Below are positions 49,184 through 57,302 of a stretch of 64,000 nucleotides of DNA, piece by piece. A program made the translations under genes and the position numbers. How positions within the stretch are numbered: position 1 is the stretch's first letter; every line of letters begins with the position of its first letter. Source of the DNA: Pseudomonas lijiangensis (GTDB taxonomy: Bacteria > Pseudomonadota > Gammaproteobacteria > Pseudomonadales > Pseudomonadaceae); NCBI RefSeq assembly GCF_018968705.1, contig NZ_CP076668.1, forward strand, positions 4,227,001 to 4,291,000. Reading direction: 5' to 3'. The notes beneath the pieces are model-generated. The model made no database searches. It saw only the letters and a list, made by a program, of their open reading frames with translations, and had not been told where the DNA came from.

Positions 49184-49873
49184 TCACCCGGCGATATCGC
49201 GTAATGCGACCTCACTCAGAATGCGTTCCATCACCTGCTGGATGGATAATTCGGTGGAATCCAGCTGTATGGCGTCATGCGCCGGCTTGAGCGGAGCTAC
49301 CGCTCGCTGGGTGTCACGCTCGTCGCGCGCACATATCTCATCTAGCAGACTCGACAGACTAACATCATCACCCTTCGCCTTCAACTGCAAGTAACGACGG
49401 CGTGCACGCTCCTCGGCACTGGCAGTGAGAAAAATCTTCAGGGGCGCGTCGGGAAATACCACCGTCCCCATGTCTCGGCCATCGGCCACCAGCCCGGGTT
49501 CTTCCTGAAACGCACGCTGGCGCTGCAGCAAGGCATCGCGAACGGCAGGCAAGGAAGCGACCTGGGAAGCACCGCTGCCGATCTGCTCGTTGCGGATGGC
49601 ATGGGTAACGTCCTCGCCTTCGAGGATGATGCGCTGGCCCTGACCACCTGAAGCGGTCTCGAACTGCACATCGAGATGCGCAGCCAGCAGTTTCAGGGCT
49701 TCTTCATTGGTCAGGTCGACACCGTGATTGCGCGCCGCGAAGGCAAGCAGACGGTAAAGAGCCCCGGAATCGAGCAGACACCAGCCCAGATGCCTGGCCA
49801 GCAAGCCTGCAACAGTGCCCTTTCCAGAACCGCTAGGGCCGTCGATGGTAATAACAGGTGCTTTGATTTTCAC
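49184..49873 (-). CDS. cmk: Cytidylate kinase
   Basis: This 229-residue NMP kinase phosphorylates CMP and dCMP. The P-loop is GPSGSGKGT at residues 13-21; [19 protein letters not shown] and the [14 protein letters not shown] lid region are typical. Its ATG overlaps the tyrA-aroA stop as ATGA, so translation is coupled to the fusion gene. Confidence 0.96.
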
Positions 49874-52134
49874 TTTTTATCCTCTTGCGCGACACGCATA
49901 CCGACTTGAGCGCACAGCGCCAGAAAATTGGGAAACGATGTGGCGACGTTCGCACAATCGTGAATACGGATCGGTGCCGATGCCCGCAGTGATGCAACGC
50001 TGAATGCCATTGCAATGCGGTGATCGCCATGAGCATCGATCTCGGCACCGCCCATGGAACCGCCTTCAATAATAATGCCATCCGGCGTGGGCTCAACCTT
50101 GATACCCAACGCCAGCAGACCATCAGCCATGGCCTGAATCCGGTCCGACTCCTTGACACGCAACTCCTGCGCACCGCGCAGGACAGTACGTCCCTGAGCA
50201 CAAGCCGCAGCGACGAACAGCACCGGAAACTCGTCGATAGCCAACGGCACCAGTGCTTCGGGAATCTCGATCCCCTTCAGGGAGGCCGAACGGACCCGCA
50301 GGTCCGCAACCGGCTCGCCACCGACTTGCCGCGGGTTTTCCAGAGTGATATCACCGCCCATCAGGCGAAGGATATCGATAACACCCGCACGTGTCGGATT
50401 GACGCCCACATGCTCGAGCAACAACTCGGAACCTTCGGTAATGGATGCCGCCACCATGAAAAACGCGGCCGAGGAAATATCGGCAGGCACTTCTATACGG
50501 GTTGCCAGCAGCTTGTGCCCGGACTCCAGCGAAACGGTGTTGCCCTCGGCAGCCACCGGGTAGCCGAAGCCACGCAGCATGCGCTCGGTATGATCACGAG
50601 TGAGCGCCGGCTCGCTGACTATAGTCTCGCCATCGGCATATAGCCCGGCCAGCAACAGACAGGATTTGACCTGAGCACTGGCCATCGGCGCGTCATGGGT
50701 CTGACCCGAAAGCTTGCCGACAGCATGAATGGTCAACGGAGGACGGCCATCGGCCGCCGTTTCGATGGCCGCACCCATGGCCCGCAAAGGGTCGACCACA
50801 CGGCTCATGGGCCGCTTGGACAGCGAGGCATCGCCCGTCAGGGTGCTGTCGAAATCCTGCGCCGCCAGCAGACCTGCCAGCAGGCGCATGGAGGTTCCGG
50901 AATTGCCCAGGTAGATCGGACCGGGCGCAGCCTTCAGGCCACGCAAGCCGACACCATGAATGATCACGCGACCATGATGCGGTCCTTCGATCACGACCCC
51001 CATGTCACGGAAAGCCTGCAAGGTCGCCAGCGCGTCCTCGCCTTCAAGAAAGCCTTCGACCTCGGTAACGCCCTCAGCCAGAGAACCCAGCATGATCGAG
51101 CGATGGGAGATGGACTTGTCTCCCGGCACGCGAATACTGCCGCTGACACTGCCGCCGGGGCTGGCGACAAAAACCAGATCATCCGCACTGACAGGCTCTA
51201 CATAGGCGCGGCGAGCCAGAATCTTGCCGAAATGCTCCCGGGCAACCCGCGCACGGGTGAACACACCCAGCAGTTGATGGCCGTCGCCGGTATCCACCGC
51301 TTCACGCAAGGCATCCAGATCACTGCGGAATGTATCCAGAGTGCGCAGAACGGCTTCGCGGTTGGCCAGGAAGATGTCGTGCCACATCACCGGATCACTG
51401 CCCGCGATACGGGTGAAGTCACGGAAACCGCCCGCCGCGTACCTGAAGATCTCCAGGTTTTCGTTACGCTTGGCCAGGGAATCCACCAGACCGAATGCCA
51501 GCAGATGCGGCAGATGACTGGTCGCAGCCAGGACCTCGTCGTGACGCTCGACCTGCATATGCTCGACATCGGCGCCCAGCACCGACCAGAGACGATCAAC
51601 CAGCGCCACGGCATCGGGATCCGTCTCGGCCAGCGGTGTCAGAATCACCTTGTGGCGCCGGAACAAATCGGCGTTGGACGCCTCGACGCCACTCTGTTCG
51701 GAACCGGCAATCGGATGCCCCGGCACGAAGCGGGCTGGCATGTGACCGAAGGCAAGTCGTGCAGCCCGTACCACATTGCCCTTGGCGCTGCCGACATCCG
51801 TCAGGATCGCATTACCAAGGTCCAGAGGTGCCAGCAGGCCGAGGAGCTTTTCCATAGCCAGGATCGGGACTGCAAGCTGAATGACATCTGCGCCCCGACA
51901 AGCGGTCGCCAGATCCGCTTCGCAGCGATCCACAACACCCAGCTCAACGGCCAGTACGCGGGATTTCGGGTCAAGATCGACCCCCACCACTTCACGGCAC
52001 AGACCGCTTTCGCGAACACCCTTGGCAAAGGAGCCACCGATCAGACCCAGACCGACGACCACAAGCCGACCGATGACAGGTCGAGCGGATAGCTGCGAGA
52101 AATCAACCACGCGCAGAAACCTTGTGGCTGACAC
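49870..52134 (-). CDS. tyrA-aroA: Fused cyclohexadienyl/prephenate dehydrogenase - EPSP synthase
   Basis: This 754-residue bifunctional protein links tyrosine and shikimate pathways. Residues about 20-300 are the TyrA-type dehydrogenase ([17 protein letters not shown] loop, [23 protein letters not shown]). Residues about 325-754 are EPSP synthase AroA ([49 protein letters not shown]). The fusion is characteristic of Pseudomonas. The start is a GTG at 52134; the true start is uncertain because only [13 protein letters not shown] onward is conserved. Upstream, a short remnant resembles hisC2. Confidence 0.93.
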
Positions 52135-52195
52135 CCGCGCAAGGCGAATCTGTTTGCACGCCCGACAACGCAGGAGTGAGGAAATCGCTGCTCAT
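52103..52195 (-). pseudogene. hisC2: Remnant of hisC2 (N-terminal stub)
   Basis: A 30-codon reading frame starts at ATG 52195 with an AAGGGA ribosome site and begins MSSDFLTPALSGVQTDSPC before running out of similarity and stopping at 52103. From memory, Pseudomonas HisC2 begins MS-DFLALA-PGVQ-LSPY, and hisC2 lies between pheA and tyrA in P. aeruginosa. This matches in order, position and orientation, so an internal deletion that removed nearly all of hisC2 is the best reading. It overlaps the start of the tyrA-aroA frame. Confidence 0.6.
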
Positions 52196-52206
52196 GTATC
52201 GTCCCT

Positions 52207-53301
52207 TCAAAGAACCGCTTTCGGGTAGGAACCCAGTACCTTCAAGGCAACGGCTTCATGACTGATCTTCTCCAGCACCGCCTTGACCAGCGGATCCTGG
52301 TGATGCCCTACGAAATCGATGAAGAACACGTAAGTCCACTTGCCACTGCGCGACGGACGGGTTTCGATGCGGGTCAGGTCCAGGCCATTCTCATGGAAGG
52401 GCACCAGCAGTTCATGCAACGCGCCCGGCTTGTTGCTCATCGACACAATGATCGAGGTCTTGTCGTCACCGGTCGGCGGCACTTCCTGATTACCGATGAT
52501 CAGGAACCGCGTGGAGTTGTCGGGACGATCTTCGATCTTCTCGGCCAGACGGGTCAGGCCATACAGGTCTGCCGCCATATCCCCGGCAATGGCCGCGGAG
52601 TTCCACTCGCTCTTGACCCGCTTGGCCGCTTCGGCGTTGCTGGCAACCGCCACGCGCTCGACATTCGGGTAATGAGCGTCCAGCCACTTGCGGCACTGGG
52701 CCAGCGACTGGGCATGGGAATAGATGCGGCTGATGCTTTTGGTCTTGGTGCTTTCACCGACCAGCAAATGATGGTGAATGCGCAGCTCGACTTCACCACA
52801 GATGACCATGTCATGTTCGAGGAAGCTGTCGAGGGTGTGGTTGACCGCGCCCTCGGTGGAGTTCTCCACCGGCACGACACCGAAATTCACGGCACCGGCA
52901 ACCACTTCACGGAACACTTCATCGATAGCAGCCATGGGCAGGCTGATGACCGCATGCCCGAAGTGCTTCATGGCCGCAGCCTGGGTAAAGGTCCCTTCCG
53001 GGCCCAGATAGGCGACTTTCAGCGGCTGTTCCAACGCCAGGCAGGAAGACATGATTTCGCGAAACAGACGCGCCATCTCTTCGTTGCTCAGCGGACCGCG
53101 ATTGCGGTCCATGACCCGCTTGAGCACCTGAGCTTCACGCTCAGGGCGATAGAACACAGGCACTTCGCCTTCAGCCAGCGAGGACATTTTCACCCGCGCC
53201 ACTTCCTGCGCGCAGCGTGCGCGCTCGCTGATCAGCTCCAGAACCTTTTCGTCCAGGCTGTCGATGCGAACTCGCAGCGCCTTGAGTTCTTGCTCGGACA
53301 T
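52207..53301 (-). CDS. pheA: Chorismate mutase / prephenate dehydratase
   Basis: This 364-residue bifunctional enzyme makes phenylpyruvate. The N-terminal chorismate mutase (about 1-90, LRVRIDSLDEKVLELISERARCAQEV) is followed by the dehydratase (VAYLGPEGTFTQAAAMKHFG, VPVENSTEGAVNHTLDSF, DNSTRFLIIG). A C-terminal ACT domain (KTSIIVSMSNKPGALHELL and the ESRP-like ETRPSR) confers phenylalanine feedback inhibition. Its ATG overlaps the serC stop by one base. Confidence 0.96.
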   Translation of the reverse strand: MSEQELKALRVRIDSLDEKVLELISERARCAQEVARVKMSSLAEGEVPVFYRPEREAQVLKRVMDRNRGPLSNEEMARLFREIMSSCLALEQPLKVAYLGPEGTFTQAAAMKHFGHAVISLPMAAIDEVFREVVAGAVNFGVVPVENSTEGAVNHTLDSFLEHDMVICGEVELRIHHHLLVGESTKTKSISRIYSHAQSLAQCRKWLDAHYPNVERVAVASNAEAAKRVKSEWNSAAIAGDMAADLYGLTRLAEKIEDRPDNSTRFLIIGNQEVPPTGDDKTSIIVSMSNKPGALHELLVPFHENGLDLTRIETRPSRSGKWTYVFFIDFVGHHQDPLVKAVLEKISHEAVALKVLGSYPKAVL

Positions 53302-54386
53302 CAGCCGTGCTCCTTCTCGAAGTCTTTCATGTAGGTCACCAGCGCATTGACTGCATTGATGTCGACAGCATTGTAGATGGAAGCCCGCATGCCACCGACC
53401 GAGCGATGGCCCTTGAGGTTGAGCAGGCCGTTAGCGTCGGCACCCGCCAGGAACGGCTTGTCCAGACGGTCATCGGCCAGACGGAACGGCACGTTCATCC
53501 AGGAGCGATCAGGCTTGTTGATCGGGTTGCTGTACAGCTCGCTGGCATCGATGAAGTCATACAGGGTGCGCTTCTTGACTTCATTGAGCTTGCCGATGGC
53601 TTCGACGCCACCCTGCTCCTTGAGCCACTCGAAAACCAGACCGGACAGGTACCAGGCCAGGGTCGGCGGTGTGTTGTACATCGAGCCGTTGTCGGCGGCG
53701 ACCTTGTAATCGAGCATGGTCGGGCAAAGCGCACGGGCGCGACCCAGCAGATCTTCGCGAATGATCACGACGACGATGCCGCTCGGCCCGATATTCTTCT
53801 GGGCACCGGCATAGATCATGCCGAAGCGCGAAACATCCACCGGACGGGAAAGAATATCGGAGGACATGTCGGCAATCAGTGGGACATCGCCTGTTTCCGG
53901 AATCCAGTCGAATTCCAGGCCACCGATGGTTTCGTTCGGCGCGTAGTGAACATAGGCAGCGTCCTTGGACAGCTTCCATTCGTTCTGGCCAGGAATGGCG
54001 AAATAGTCGTATGGCTTGGCGCTGGCAGCGACATTGACCGTGCCGTAGCGCGAGGCTTCTTCAATAGCCTTCTGCGACCAGATGCCGGTGTCGATGTAGT
54101 CAGCCTTGCCGTTTTCCGGCAGCAGGTTCAGGGCAATCTGGGCAAACTGCTGGCTGGCGCCGCCTTGCAGGAACAGCACCTTGTAGTTCGAGGGGATGGT
54201 CAGCAGGTCGCGAAGATCCTGCTCGGCCTTGGTGGCAATGGAGACGAACTCATCGCTGCGATGACTCATTTCCATCACGGACAGGCCCTTGCCATGCCAG
54301 TCCAGAAGCTCCGCCTGGGCACGCAACAGAACCGCTTCGGGAAGCGCAGCGGGACCTGCGCAAAAGTTAAAGGCTCGCTTGCTCAT
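53301..54386 (-). CDS. serC: Phosphoserine aminotransferase
   Basis: This 361-residue class V PLP aminotransferase for serine and pyridoxal phosphate synthesis starts at ATG 54386 (MSKRAFNFCAGPAALPEAVL). The PLP lysine lies in YAGAQKNIGPSG; the phosphate-binding LFLQGGASQQFAQ and C-terminal HRSVGGMRASIYNA are conserved. A longer upstream reading adds 32 unrelated residues. It is followed by pheA with a one-base stop/start overlap (TGATG). Confidence 0.96.
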   Translation of the reverse strand: MSKRAFNFCAGPAALPEAVLLRAQAELLDWHGKGLSVMEMSHRSDEFVSIATKAEQDLRDLLTIPSNYKVLFLQGGASQQFAQIALNLLPENGKADYIDTGIWSQKAIEEASRYGTVNVAASAKPYDYFAIPGQNEWKLSKDAAYVHYAPNETIGGLEFDWIPETGDVPLIADMSSDILSRPVDVSRFGMIYAGAQKNIGPSGIVVVIIREDLLGRARALCPTMLDYKVAADNGSMYNTPPTLAWYLSGLVFEWLKEQGGVEAIGKLNEVKKRTLYDFIDASELYSNPINKPDRSWMNVPFRLADDRLDKPFLAGADANGLLNLKGHRSVGGMRASIYNAVDINAVNALVTYMKDFEKEHG

Positions 54387-54521
54387 ATCCACTCTCGTCA
54401 AATGCGTTGGGTCTTTCGCGCTGCTTTTCCGGTCTACTGACCGAATGTCGCAAGGGCCGACCCGCCTGCAATGCATACGCACTCACAGACGAGCCAGCCC
54501 TTGCCGGATTTACGTTACCGC

Positions 54522-57302
54522 TCAGCCTTGTGTTTCGTCATCGTCCGCTGCTGCATCGGCATCGACTTGCAGATCGTCGGCATCATCTGCCTCGACCACG
54601 ACACCATCCACGATTTCACCGTCAAGTTCGTCATCTTCGACTTCCGATGGCTCCTGGACACGCTCCAGACCCACCAGGGTTTCGTCGGTGGCCAGCTTGA
54701 TCAGGGTGACGCCCTGGGTGTTGCGATCCAGGCGGGAGACTTCGTCGACCCGAGTGCGCACCAGCGTACCCTGATCGGAAATCAGCATGATTTCCTCGCC
54801 TTCCTGAACCTGCACAGCGCCGATCAGCTTACCGTTACGACCCTTGGTGACCATGGCGATAACGCCCTGACCGCCACGACCGCGACGCGGGAACTTGCTC
54901 AGCAGGGTACGCTTGCCGAAACCACGCTCGGAAGCGGTGAGAATCTGCGCGCCAGACTCGGGGATCAGCATGGAAATCAGTCGGCCCTTGCCGATCTTCA
55001 TCCCGCGCACACCGCGAGCGCCGCGGCCCATCTGACGAACATCGCTCTCGGCGAAACGGATGACCTTGCCGGCGTCGGAGAACAGCATGACTTCCTTGGC
55101 GCCGTCGGTAATCGCAACGGCAATCAGGGTGTCGCCTTCCTTGAGCTTCAGGGCAATCAGGCCGCTGGAGCGAGGACGGGAGAACTGTGCCAGAGGCGTC
55201 TTCTTGACCGTACCGAAGGCCGTGGCCATGAAGATGTAGGCGCCAGTCGGCTCGGCAACCAGTTCCGGCGTATCGCCGTCTTCTTCCTCGGCTTCCTCGG
55301 CCTCGACCACTTCACCTTCGATTACCGAATCTTCGGCATCTTCCAGCTCGTCATCGGCACCCGAACTCTGCTGCAGCGCTTCAAGATCGATCGGCAGCAT
55401 GGCGGTGATGTATTCACCTTCGTCCAGCGGCAACAGGTTGACCAGCGGACGACCACGAGCGGCACGGGACGCTTCCGGAATCTCGTAGGTCTTGAGCCAG
55501 TAAACCTTGCCCTTGCTGGAGAACATCAGCAATGTGGTGTGGCTGTTGGCGACCAGCAGGTGAGCAATGTAGTCCTCATCCTTGATGCCGGTAGCCGATT
55601 TGCCTTTACCTCCACGACGCTGAGCCTGATAGACCGCCAATGGCTGGGTCTTGGCATAACCGCCGTGGGAAATGGTGACAACACGCTCTTCTTCGGTGAT
55701 CAGGTCACCCAGGGTCAGGTCCAGACGCGCATCGAGAATCTCGGTGCGGCGCACATCGCCATATTCGGAGCGAATCAGTTCCAGTTCTTCGCGGATCACT
55801 TCCATCAGGCGCGTGGCGCTGCCCAGGATGCGGATCAGCTCGCCGATCTGGTTGAGGATTTCCTGATACTCGGTGAGCAGTTTTTCATGCTCCAGACCGG
55901 TCAGACGATGCAGACGCAATTCAAGAATCGCCTGTGCCTGTTCAGGCGACAGGAAATACTTGCCGTCACGCAGACCGTACTGTGGATCGAGGTTTTCCGG
56001 ACGGCAGGAATCGGCACCGGCACGCTCGACCATTTCAACCACAGCGCTGGATTCCCAGGCCGTGCTGATCAGTCCTTCCTTGGCTTCGGCCGGAGAAGGC
56101 GAAGCCTTGATGAGGGCGATGACAGGGTCGATGTTCGACAGCGCAACGGCCTGACCTTCGAGAATATGCCCACGCTCACGCGCCTTGCGTAGTTCGAAGA
56201 CGGTACGGCGGGTCACCACTTCGCGACGGTGACGGACGAAAGCTTCCAGCAGATCCTTGAGGTTGAGGATTCGCGGACGACCGTCGATCAACGCAACGAT
56301 GTTGATGCCGAATACGCTTTGCAGCTGGGTCTGGGCATAGAGGTTGTTGAGGATGACCTCTGGAACCTCGCCACGACGCAGCTCGATGACCACGCGCATA
56401 CCGTCCTTGTCGGACTCGTCGCGCAGCTCGGTGATACCTTCGAGTTTCTTCTCTTTTACCAGCTCGGCGATCTTTTCGATCAGGCGAGCCTTGTTCAACT
56501 GGTACGGCAGCTCGGTGATGACGATCTGCTGACGACCGCCTACCTTGTCGATGTCTTCGACGATGGAACGGGCACGCATATAAATGCGGCCACGACCGGT
56601 GCGATAGGCTTCGATGATGCCGGCACGACCGTTGATGATCCCCGCCGTCGGGAAGTCCGGGCCTGGAATGTATTGCATCAACTCATCGACAGTCACTTCG
56701 GGATTGTCGATCAGGGCCAAACAGCCGTCGATGACTTCACCGAGGTTGTGCGGCGGAATGTTGGTCGCCATGCCCACGGCAATACCGCTGGAGCCGTTGA
56801 CCAGCAGGTTGGGAATACGGGTGGGCATGACCGCCGGGATCAGCTCGGTGCCGTCATAGTTGGGCACCCAGTCCACGGTTTCCTTGTGCAGGTCGGCCAG
56901 CAGCTCGTGAGCCAGCTTGGTCATGCGCACTTCGGTGTATCGCATGGCCGCGGCGTTGTCGCCGTCGACCGAACCGAAGTTGCCCTGGCCGTCTACCAGC
57001 AGGTAGCGCAGCGAGAAGGGCTGCGCCATACGAACGATGGTGTCGTAGACAGCGGTATCGCCATGCGGGTGGTACTTACCGATTACGTCACCAACCACAC
57101 GAGCGGATTTCTTGTACGGCTTGTTCCAGTCGTTACCCAGCTCGCTCATTGCGTACAGCACGCGCCGGTGCACGGGCTTCAAGCCATCGCGCGCATCCGG
57201 CAGTGCACGCCCGACGATTACGCTCATCGCGTAGTCGAGGTAGGACTGCTTCAGCTCGTCTTCGATATTGACCGGGAGGATTTCTTTGGCCAGTTCGCCC
57301 AT
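54522..57302 (-). CDS. gyrA: DNA gyrase subunit A
   Basis: This 926-residue subunit starts at ATG 57302 ([18 protein letters not shown]). The breakage-reunion domain has the catalytic tyrosine in [11 protein letters not shown], and the quinolone region [17 protein letters not shown] keeps wild-type Thr and Asp at the positions equivalent to 83 and 87. The GyrA box QRRGGKG is present in the C-terminal pinwheel. A long acidic insert ([19 protein letters not shown] and on) interrupts the C-terminal domain and a second acidic tail ends the protein. Both are longer than in E. coli GyrA (875 residues) and typical of Pseudomonas. Confidence 0.97.

Follow-up and report, generated by a model that had tools for sequence, protein, structure and literature searches.

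A short open reading frame between pheA and the tyrA-aroA fusion gene of Pseudomonas lijiangensis is a remnant of hisC2, left by an in-frame internal deletion that removed approximately 340 of 370 codons and kept both the start and the stop of the gene. The start and stop geometry of this stub is conserved among related loci in excess of neutral expectation, and we think it probable that what has preserved the stub is not its peptide but a role as mini-cistron, coupling translation of tyrA-aroA to the operon by termination-reinitiation. In the window, i.e. the whole stretch of 64,000 nucleotides that was analysed, the genes concerned are arranged as follows.

53301..54482, minus strand: frame as listed for the gene that we take to be serC; its true start is probably an internal ATG near 54386.
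52207..53301, minus strand: pheA, chorismate mutase / prephenate dehydratase, 364 aa (NF008865 and TIGR01807 over cut-off).
52196..52206, minus strand: pheA-stub spacer of 11 nt (AGGGACGATAC), which holds the stub ribosome site.
52103..52195, minus strand: hisC2 stub ORF of 30 aa plus TGA, approximately the first 18 hisC2 codons joined in frame to the last codons.
52103..52110, minus strand: overlap of 8 nt (GTGGTTGA) between stub and tyrA-aroA, with the GTG at 52110-52108 and the stub TGA at 52105-52103.
49870..52110, minus strand: tyrA-aroA fusion, 746 aa, prephenate dehydrogenase / EPSP synthase, start GTG 52110 (NF011381, 1269 bits, cut-off 902).
49184..49873, minus strand: frame of what is presumably cmk.

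Between serC and pheA, stop and start share 1 nt (TGATG); between tyrA-aroA and cmk, the stop and the GTG share 4 nt (GTGA). The pheA stop, at 52209-52207, lies 96 nt from the tyrA-aroA start when the stub is disregarded. A longer GTG frame listed for tyrA-aroA (52134) proved to be an accident of frame, the conserved start being 52110. In the known supraoperon serC-pheA-hisC2-tyrA-aroA-cmk-rpsA, hisC2 (hisHb) shares the place, the strand, the start and stop signals and the tyrA overlap of the stub. There, however, hisC2 encodes a full enzyme, whereas the stub is without approximately 340 codons and no aminotransferase can be made from it.

The first-pass annotation had pointed to a frame with its own ribosome site in the gap between pheA and tyrA-aroA, and this frame is present: it runs on the minus strand from an ATG at 52195 to a TGA at 52105-52103, encodes 30 amino acids and is preceded by AGGGA. 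The duplex of this site with the 16S tail was calculated at -5.0 kcal/mol; 25% of 500 random 15-mers reach -4 kcal/mol, and the stub ribosome site alone thus proves little. The proposed likeness to the HisC2 N-terminus held upon alignment. Residues were identical at 12 of 18 positions with the HisC2 of locus L103, the best match among 78, and none of 200,000 start-anchored shuffles of the stub reached the L103 score (tested against that one protein only). At its other end the stub reads KVSARG*, resembling the ending of HisC2 (KVLARG in 64 of the 78 proteins) in frame with the stop that overlaps tyrA. Because the stub resembles HisC2 at both its N-terminus and its C-terminus, both hisC2 ends remain and are joined in frame, in agreement with the internal deletion that had been suggested. 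The earlier reading had missed the C-terminal likeness, the fact that the in-frame joint keeps the start and stop of hisC2, and the persistence of the mini-ORF in relatives of the same clade. Judged by titles and abstract openings, the searches of open-licence literature listed no paper on this hisC2 remnant.

The gap is also, as had been proposed, the place of hisC2 in relatives. The gene sits between pheA and tyrA in 77 hisC2-bearing loci (a count that includes L123, L125 and L126, probable repeats of L035, L040 and L038) and in 20 of 20 distant genomes of the genus, which were picked among those with a strong HisC2 match and show the place of hisC2, not its frequency. In these 20 genomes the hisC2 stop lies 22-65 nt ahead of the tyrA core, and in four of them 660-852 nt separate pheA and hisC2. 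That relatives might share the gap without ever having had hisC2 is contradicted by the stub itself, which carries both ends of the gene. A second hisC, looked for elsewhere in the genome of the window (L007), was found as an intact HisC1 directly after hisD (TIGR01141, 309.6 bits, cut-off 276.55), which is predicted to supply the histidinol-phosphate aminotransferase.

Throughout the genus, pheA was found in 396 of 398 genomes searched; at least 80 loci were taken in by the pheA search in named genomes. HisC2 gave a clear signal in approximately 308 of the 398 genomes, only a distant HisC1-type match in 88 (best E-values of about 1e-71 or weaker, "no HisC2" being a reading by eye) and no match in 2. 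Some distant genomes also are without hisC2, e.g. G079, G145, G160, G342 and G396. Loci whose PheA/TyrA row was identical to that of a named locus (L107, L111, L118, L122, L127, L130) were left out of the start and stub counts, and L153 gave no tyrA match. Loss of hisC2 in this group has been published before: according to Song et al. 2005 (PMC1173090), hisHb belonged to the ancestral supraoperon, P. aeruginosa and P. stutzeri have retained it, and the supraoperons of P. syringae, P. fluorescens and P. putida are without it. This is the same gene loss as the one described here; the passages of that paper on the loss describe no remnant ORF, whereas here a stub ORF is present.

By the comparison of loci and by Song et al. 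2005, hisC2 is ancestral at the pheA-tyrA place. The conclusion that there were two separate losses rests on this ancestry and on the joints, which keep different parts of hisC2. In a quick protein tree of 116 rows, the window group falls into a starred branch together with 20 hisC2-bearing rows and apart from the putida-side rows. The tree is unrooted and needs two changes, of which its starred branches force only one (the 20 distant genomes being outside the tree). Some loci differ otherwise in this region. Between pheA and hisC2, L034, L035, L037, L121 and L123 have approximately 140-200 extra bases, which in L034, L035 and L037 contain inverted-repeat (REP-like) sequence. The pheA of L199 (G079) has an in-frame TGA and the match to that of L200 (G384) ends at residue 318, these being either broken genes or assembly errors.

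The stub persists throughout the syringae/cichorii clade. In all 17 distinct loci of this clade exactly 11 nt separate the pheA stop from the ATG, no earlier stop interrupts the frame, and the stop of the stub overlaps the tyrA GTG by 8 nt (GTGNNTGA). The stubs measure 31, 24, 21 or 18 codons including the stop, all in frame; the four lengths imply three or more length changes of the interior, none of which broke the frame, and the interior sequence is largely scrambled. Such a lack of interior conservation would be expected of the main rival explanation, namely that the stub is plain decaying hisC2 scrap without a role and that only tyrA's own initiation region before the GTG is kept. The 3' end of the stub indeed contains the tyrA ribosome site, and a similar site occurs in putida-side genomes without a stub ORF. 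Plain decay is nevertheless difficult to reconcile with an ATG that is invariant in 17 of 17 loci at the far end of an ORF of 54-93 nt, with the in-frame state of every length, or with a stop preserved at a position that is synonymous for tyrA, and we regard it as unlikely.

Neutral expectation was evaluated by simulation on a tree from 287 4-fold sites with a total length of 4.5 changes per site. The ATG was kept in all 17 loci in 0 of 20,000 runs for each of 10 settings, and with GTG or TTG also accepted a start was kept in at most 4 of 20,000 runs. Simulated stubs were stop-free in all 17 loci in 1 to 64% of runs, which makes the open frame alone weak evidence. As a model-free yardstick, 35 of the 287 4-fold sites are invariant across the 17 loci, and 0 of 53 among the sites with A or T as main base; the A and the T of the stub ATG are invariant. 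Likewise invariant is the third-position T of tyrA codon 2 (GTT in 15 loci, ATT in 2), silent in tyrA and needed for the stub TGA. The start codon and this T together argue that the stub ORF is kept by selection. Among the frame-shift controls, the second frame was open in 11 of 17 loci; frame +1 was closed in 17 of 17 and, because of the TGA inside ATGA, is a partly empty control.

Two loci without the stub, L128 (G180) and L131 (G148), join the clade in the protein tree with 97% SH-aLRT on a long branch, the count then being 17 of 19; by nucleotide identity of pheA and tyrA, however, they are no nearer to the clade than to others. They are reported apart from the 17 because the branch is long and the nucleotide identities do not place them. 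In both, an ATG located 4 nt beyond pheA serves as tyrA start. Here a deletion apparently joined the start of hisC2 to the frame of tyrA, and this tyrA start is another way to close the gap. A further search for relatives revealed no new clade members.

On the putida side, mini-ORFs that end in the tyrA start are found in 13 loci (the second group), with 13-16 codons, and in 3 more, with 20-21 codons. Both sets were assembled after viewing the gap sequences, so their counts are a description and not a test, and the protein tree places L182, which has no such stub, among the 13 (unstarred). One of the 13 is L077; in L077/L127 a one-base difference has shifted the frame of the mini-ORF, whose end still falls at the tyrA start via GTGA. 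The other 51 hisC2-less loci with a GTG, mostly putida-side, served as contrast; in many of them the spacer is long and contains numerous inverted repeats. The stop of the hisC frame survives in 18 of the 51, an ATG ORF to tyrA is found in 12, and an ORF with any start (ATG, GTG or TTG) reaches tyrA in 25. For contrast spacers below 100 nt an ATG ORF was found in 3 of 11 (L200, with its pheA cut short, was left out). The contrast loci are mutually related and this comparison is not a formal test.

Coupling by termination-reinitiation, the explanation that we favour for the kept stub, would work as follows. The in-frame deletion took approximately 340 of the 370 hisC2 codons and left the ribosome site, the start, the last codons and the stop. 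Ribosomes would load at the stub ATG, read 17-30 codons, end at the TGA that overlaps the tyrA-aroA GTG, and reinitiate there. The stub would keep tyrA-aroA coupled to the serC-pheA-(hisC2)-tyrA-aroA-cmk operon, in which the other two junctions are also overlapping. Both the translation of the stub and its driving of tyrA-aroA are our inference. The overlap of -8 nt falls within the range used for coupled short ORFs (-8 to +10 nt). Huber et al. 2023 (PMC10666635) rank the -8 overlap third in frequency among short geometries and report that it couples less efficiently than shorter overlaps; there, the last 15 nt of the upstream gene are enough for coupling, and a spacing of approximately 20 nt nearly abolishes it.

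Stub ribosome sites in the clade ranged from -2.9 to -12.2 kcal/mol, compared with a mean of -2.5 for random 15-mers. The stub site exceeded the tyrA site in strength in 14 of the 17 clade loci and was weaker in the other 3; in the second group it was stronger in 8 of 13 loci and weaker in 5 of 13. The ribosome site of tyrA itself is modest (-3.8 in the window); because it is present, tyrA could also start by itself. Most putida-side loci do without a stub, which counts against this explanation. RNA folding did not consistently indicate that the stub must be translated for the tyrA start to become exposed; for the window, the accessibility of this start even falls, from 0.51 to 0.32, when the upstream part is cleared.

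A review of 2025 (PMC12548453) describes short ORFs that serve only to bring ribosomes to the following gene. According to the relevant parts of that review, uORF-type coupling, MIRU insertions and the synthetic bicistronic design are like the stub in having a short ORF, an own ribosome site, a stop that overlaps the next start, and an apparently functionless peptide. Unlike these systems, the stub is what remains of an enzyme gene deleted from within an operon, and it has been retained across many species. Neither "remnant" nor "pseudogene" occurs in the text of the review.

A functional small protein built from the two hisC2 ends would likewise explain a kept ORF with its own ribosome site, and the stub pN/pS of 0.59 leans below 1, although the differences behind it (10 synonymous and 18 nonsynonymous, from six independent pairs; 11 computed) are too few to decide. 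The peptides, however, vary widely between species in length (17 to 30 aa) and in sequence (e.g. MSSDFLTPALPGVQTDSP..., MSHLFIALERRES..., MIRLFFTLPGCQ...), and the putida-side stubs (e.g. MSGVHADLNRVLLRG) share little beyond the hisC2 ends. We therefore consider a functional small protein very improbable; the stub peptide shows no evident conservation of sequence and probably has no function. That the stub is an attenuator-type leader peptide which senses phenylalanine or tyrosine for tyrA-aroA is hardly credible: one or two Phe do occur in some of the stubs and the following gene serves tyrosine synthesis, but the 17 peptides are without a Phe/Tyr run beyond FF, none of the 5 terminator-like sites in 49500-54700 of the window lies in the gap (shuffled mean 3.9, sd 2.3, so that 5 is not an excess), and the overlap of the stub stop with the next start leaves no room for a terminator.

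Beyond this locus, we lean slightly towards a general form of the coupling proposal, by which dead genes in tightly coupled operons may persist as "ghost cistrons" that keep a start, an open frame and a stop as a ribosome relay. Such cistrons would have arisen in at least two separate Pseudomonas losses of hisC2 (in the syringae/cichorii group and on the putida side), and the relay would steer gene loss towards in-frame internal deletions. If true, the selected unit would be the act of translating and not the product, a testable constraint on gene loss at the level of translation. It would also suggest a class of short ORFs that annotation may throw out as pseudogene debris. Start and stop geometry across species offers a cheap comparative test that is applicable to other operons; in plant-associated Pseudomonas, the start and stop signals of a dead gene seem to outlast its protein.

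One claim of the first-pass annotation did not stand, namely that the deletion joint had produced the unusual N-terminus of tyrA-aroA. A GTG 36-42 nt ahead of the GRLVVVGLG core was found in 76 of 77 hisC2-bearing loci, and in all of these 76 it overlaps the hisC2 stop; a GTG at 39-42 nt is the ordinary start. Among loci that have lost hisC2, the GTG was present in all 17 of the window clade, in all 13 of the second group and in 54 of the 61 others. A start that is shared with 76 of 77 loci still bearing hisC2 is not a product of the deletion. Further downstream in the fusion gene, the best match of L029-L033 to the tyrA-aroA of the window ends near residue 339-356, whereas the window, L027 and L028 match the whole fusion; this pattern fits the deletion of the AroA domain in P. 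syringae that is reported in a passage of Song et al. 2005 (PMC1173090). In L056, L080 and L089, the best tblastn segment extends to residues 319, 406 and 319 of tyrA-aroA, respectively, possibly because of a break or of a low-similarity stretch in the AroA domain.
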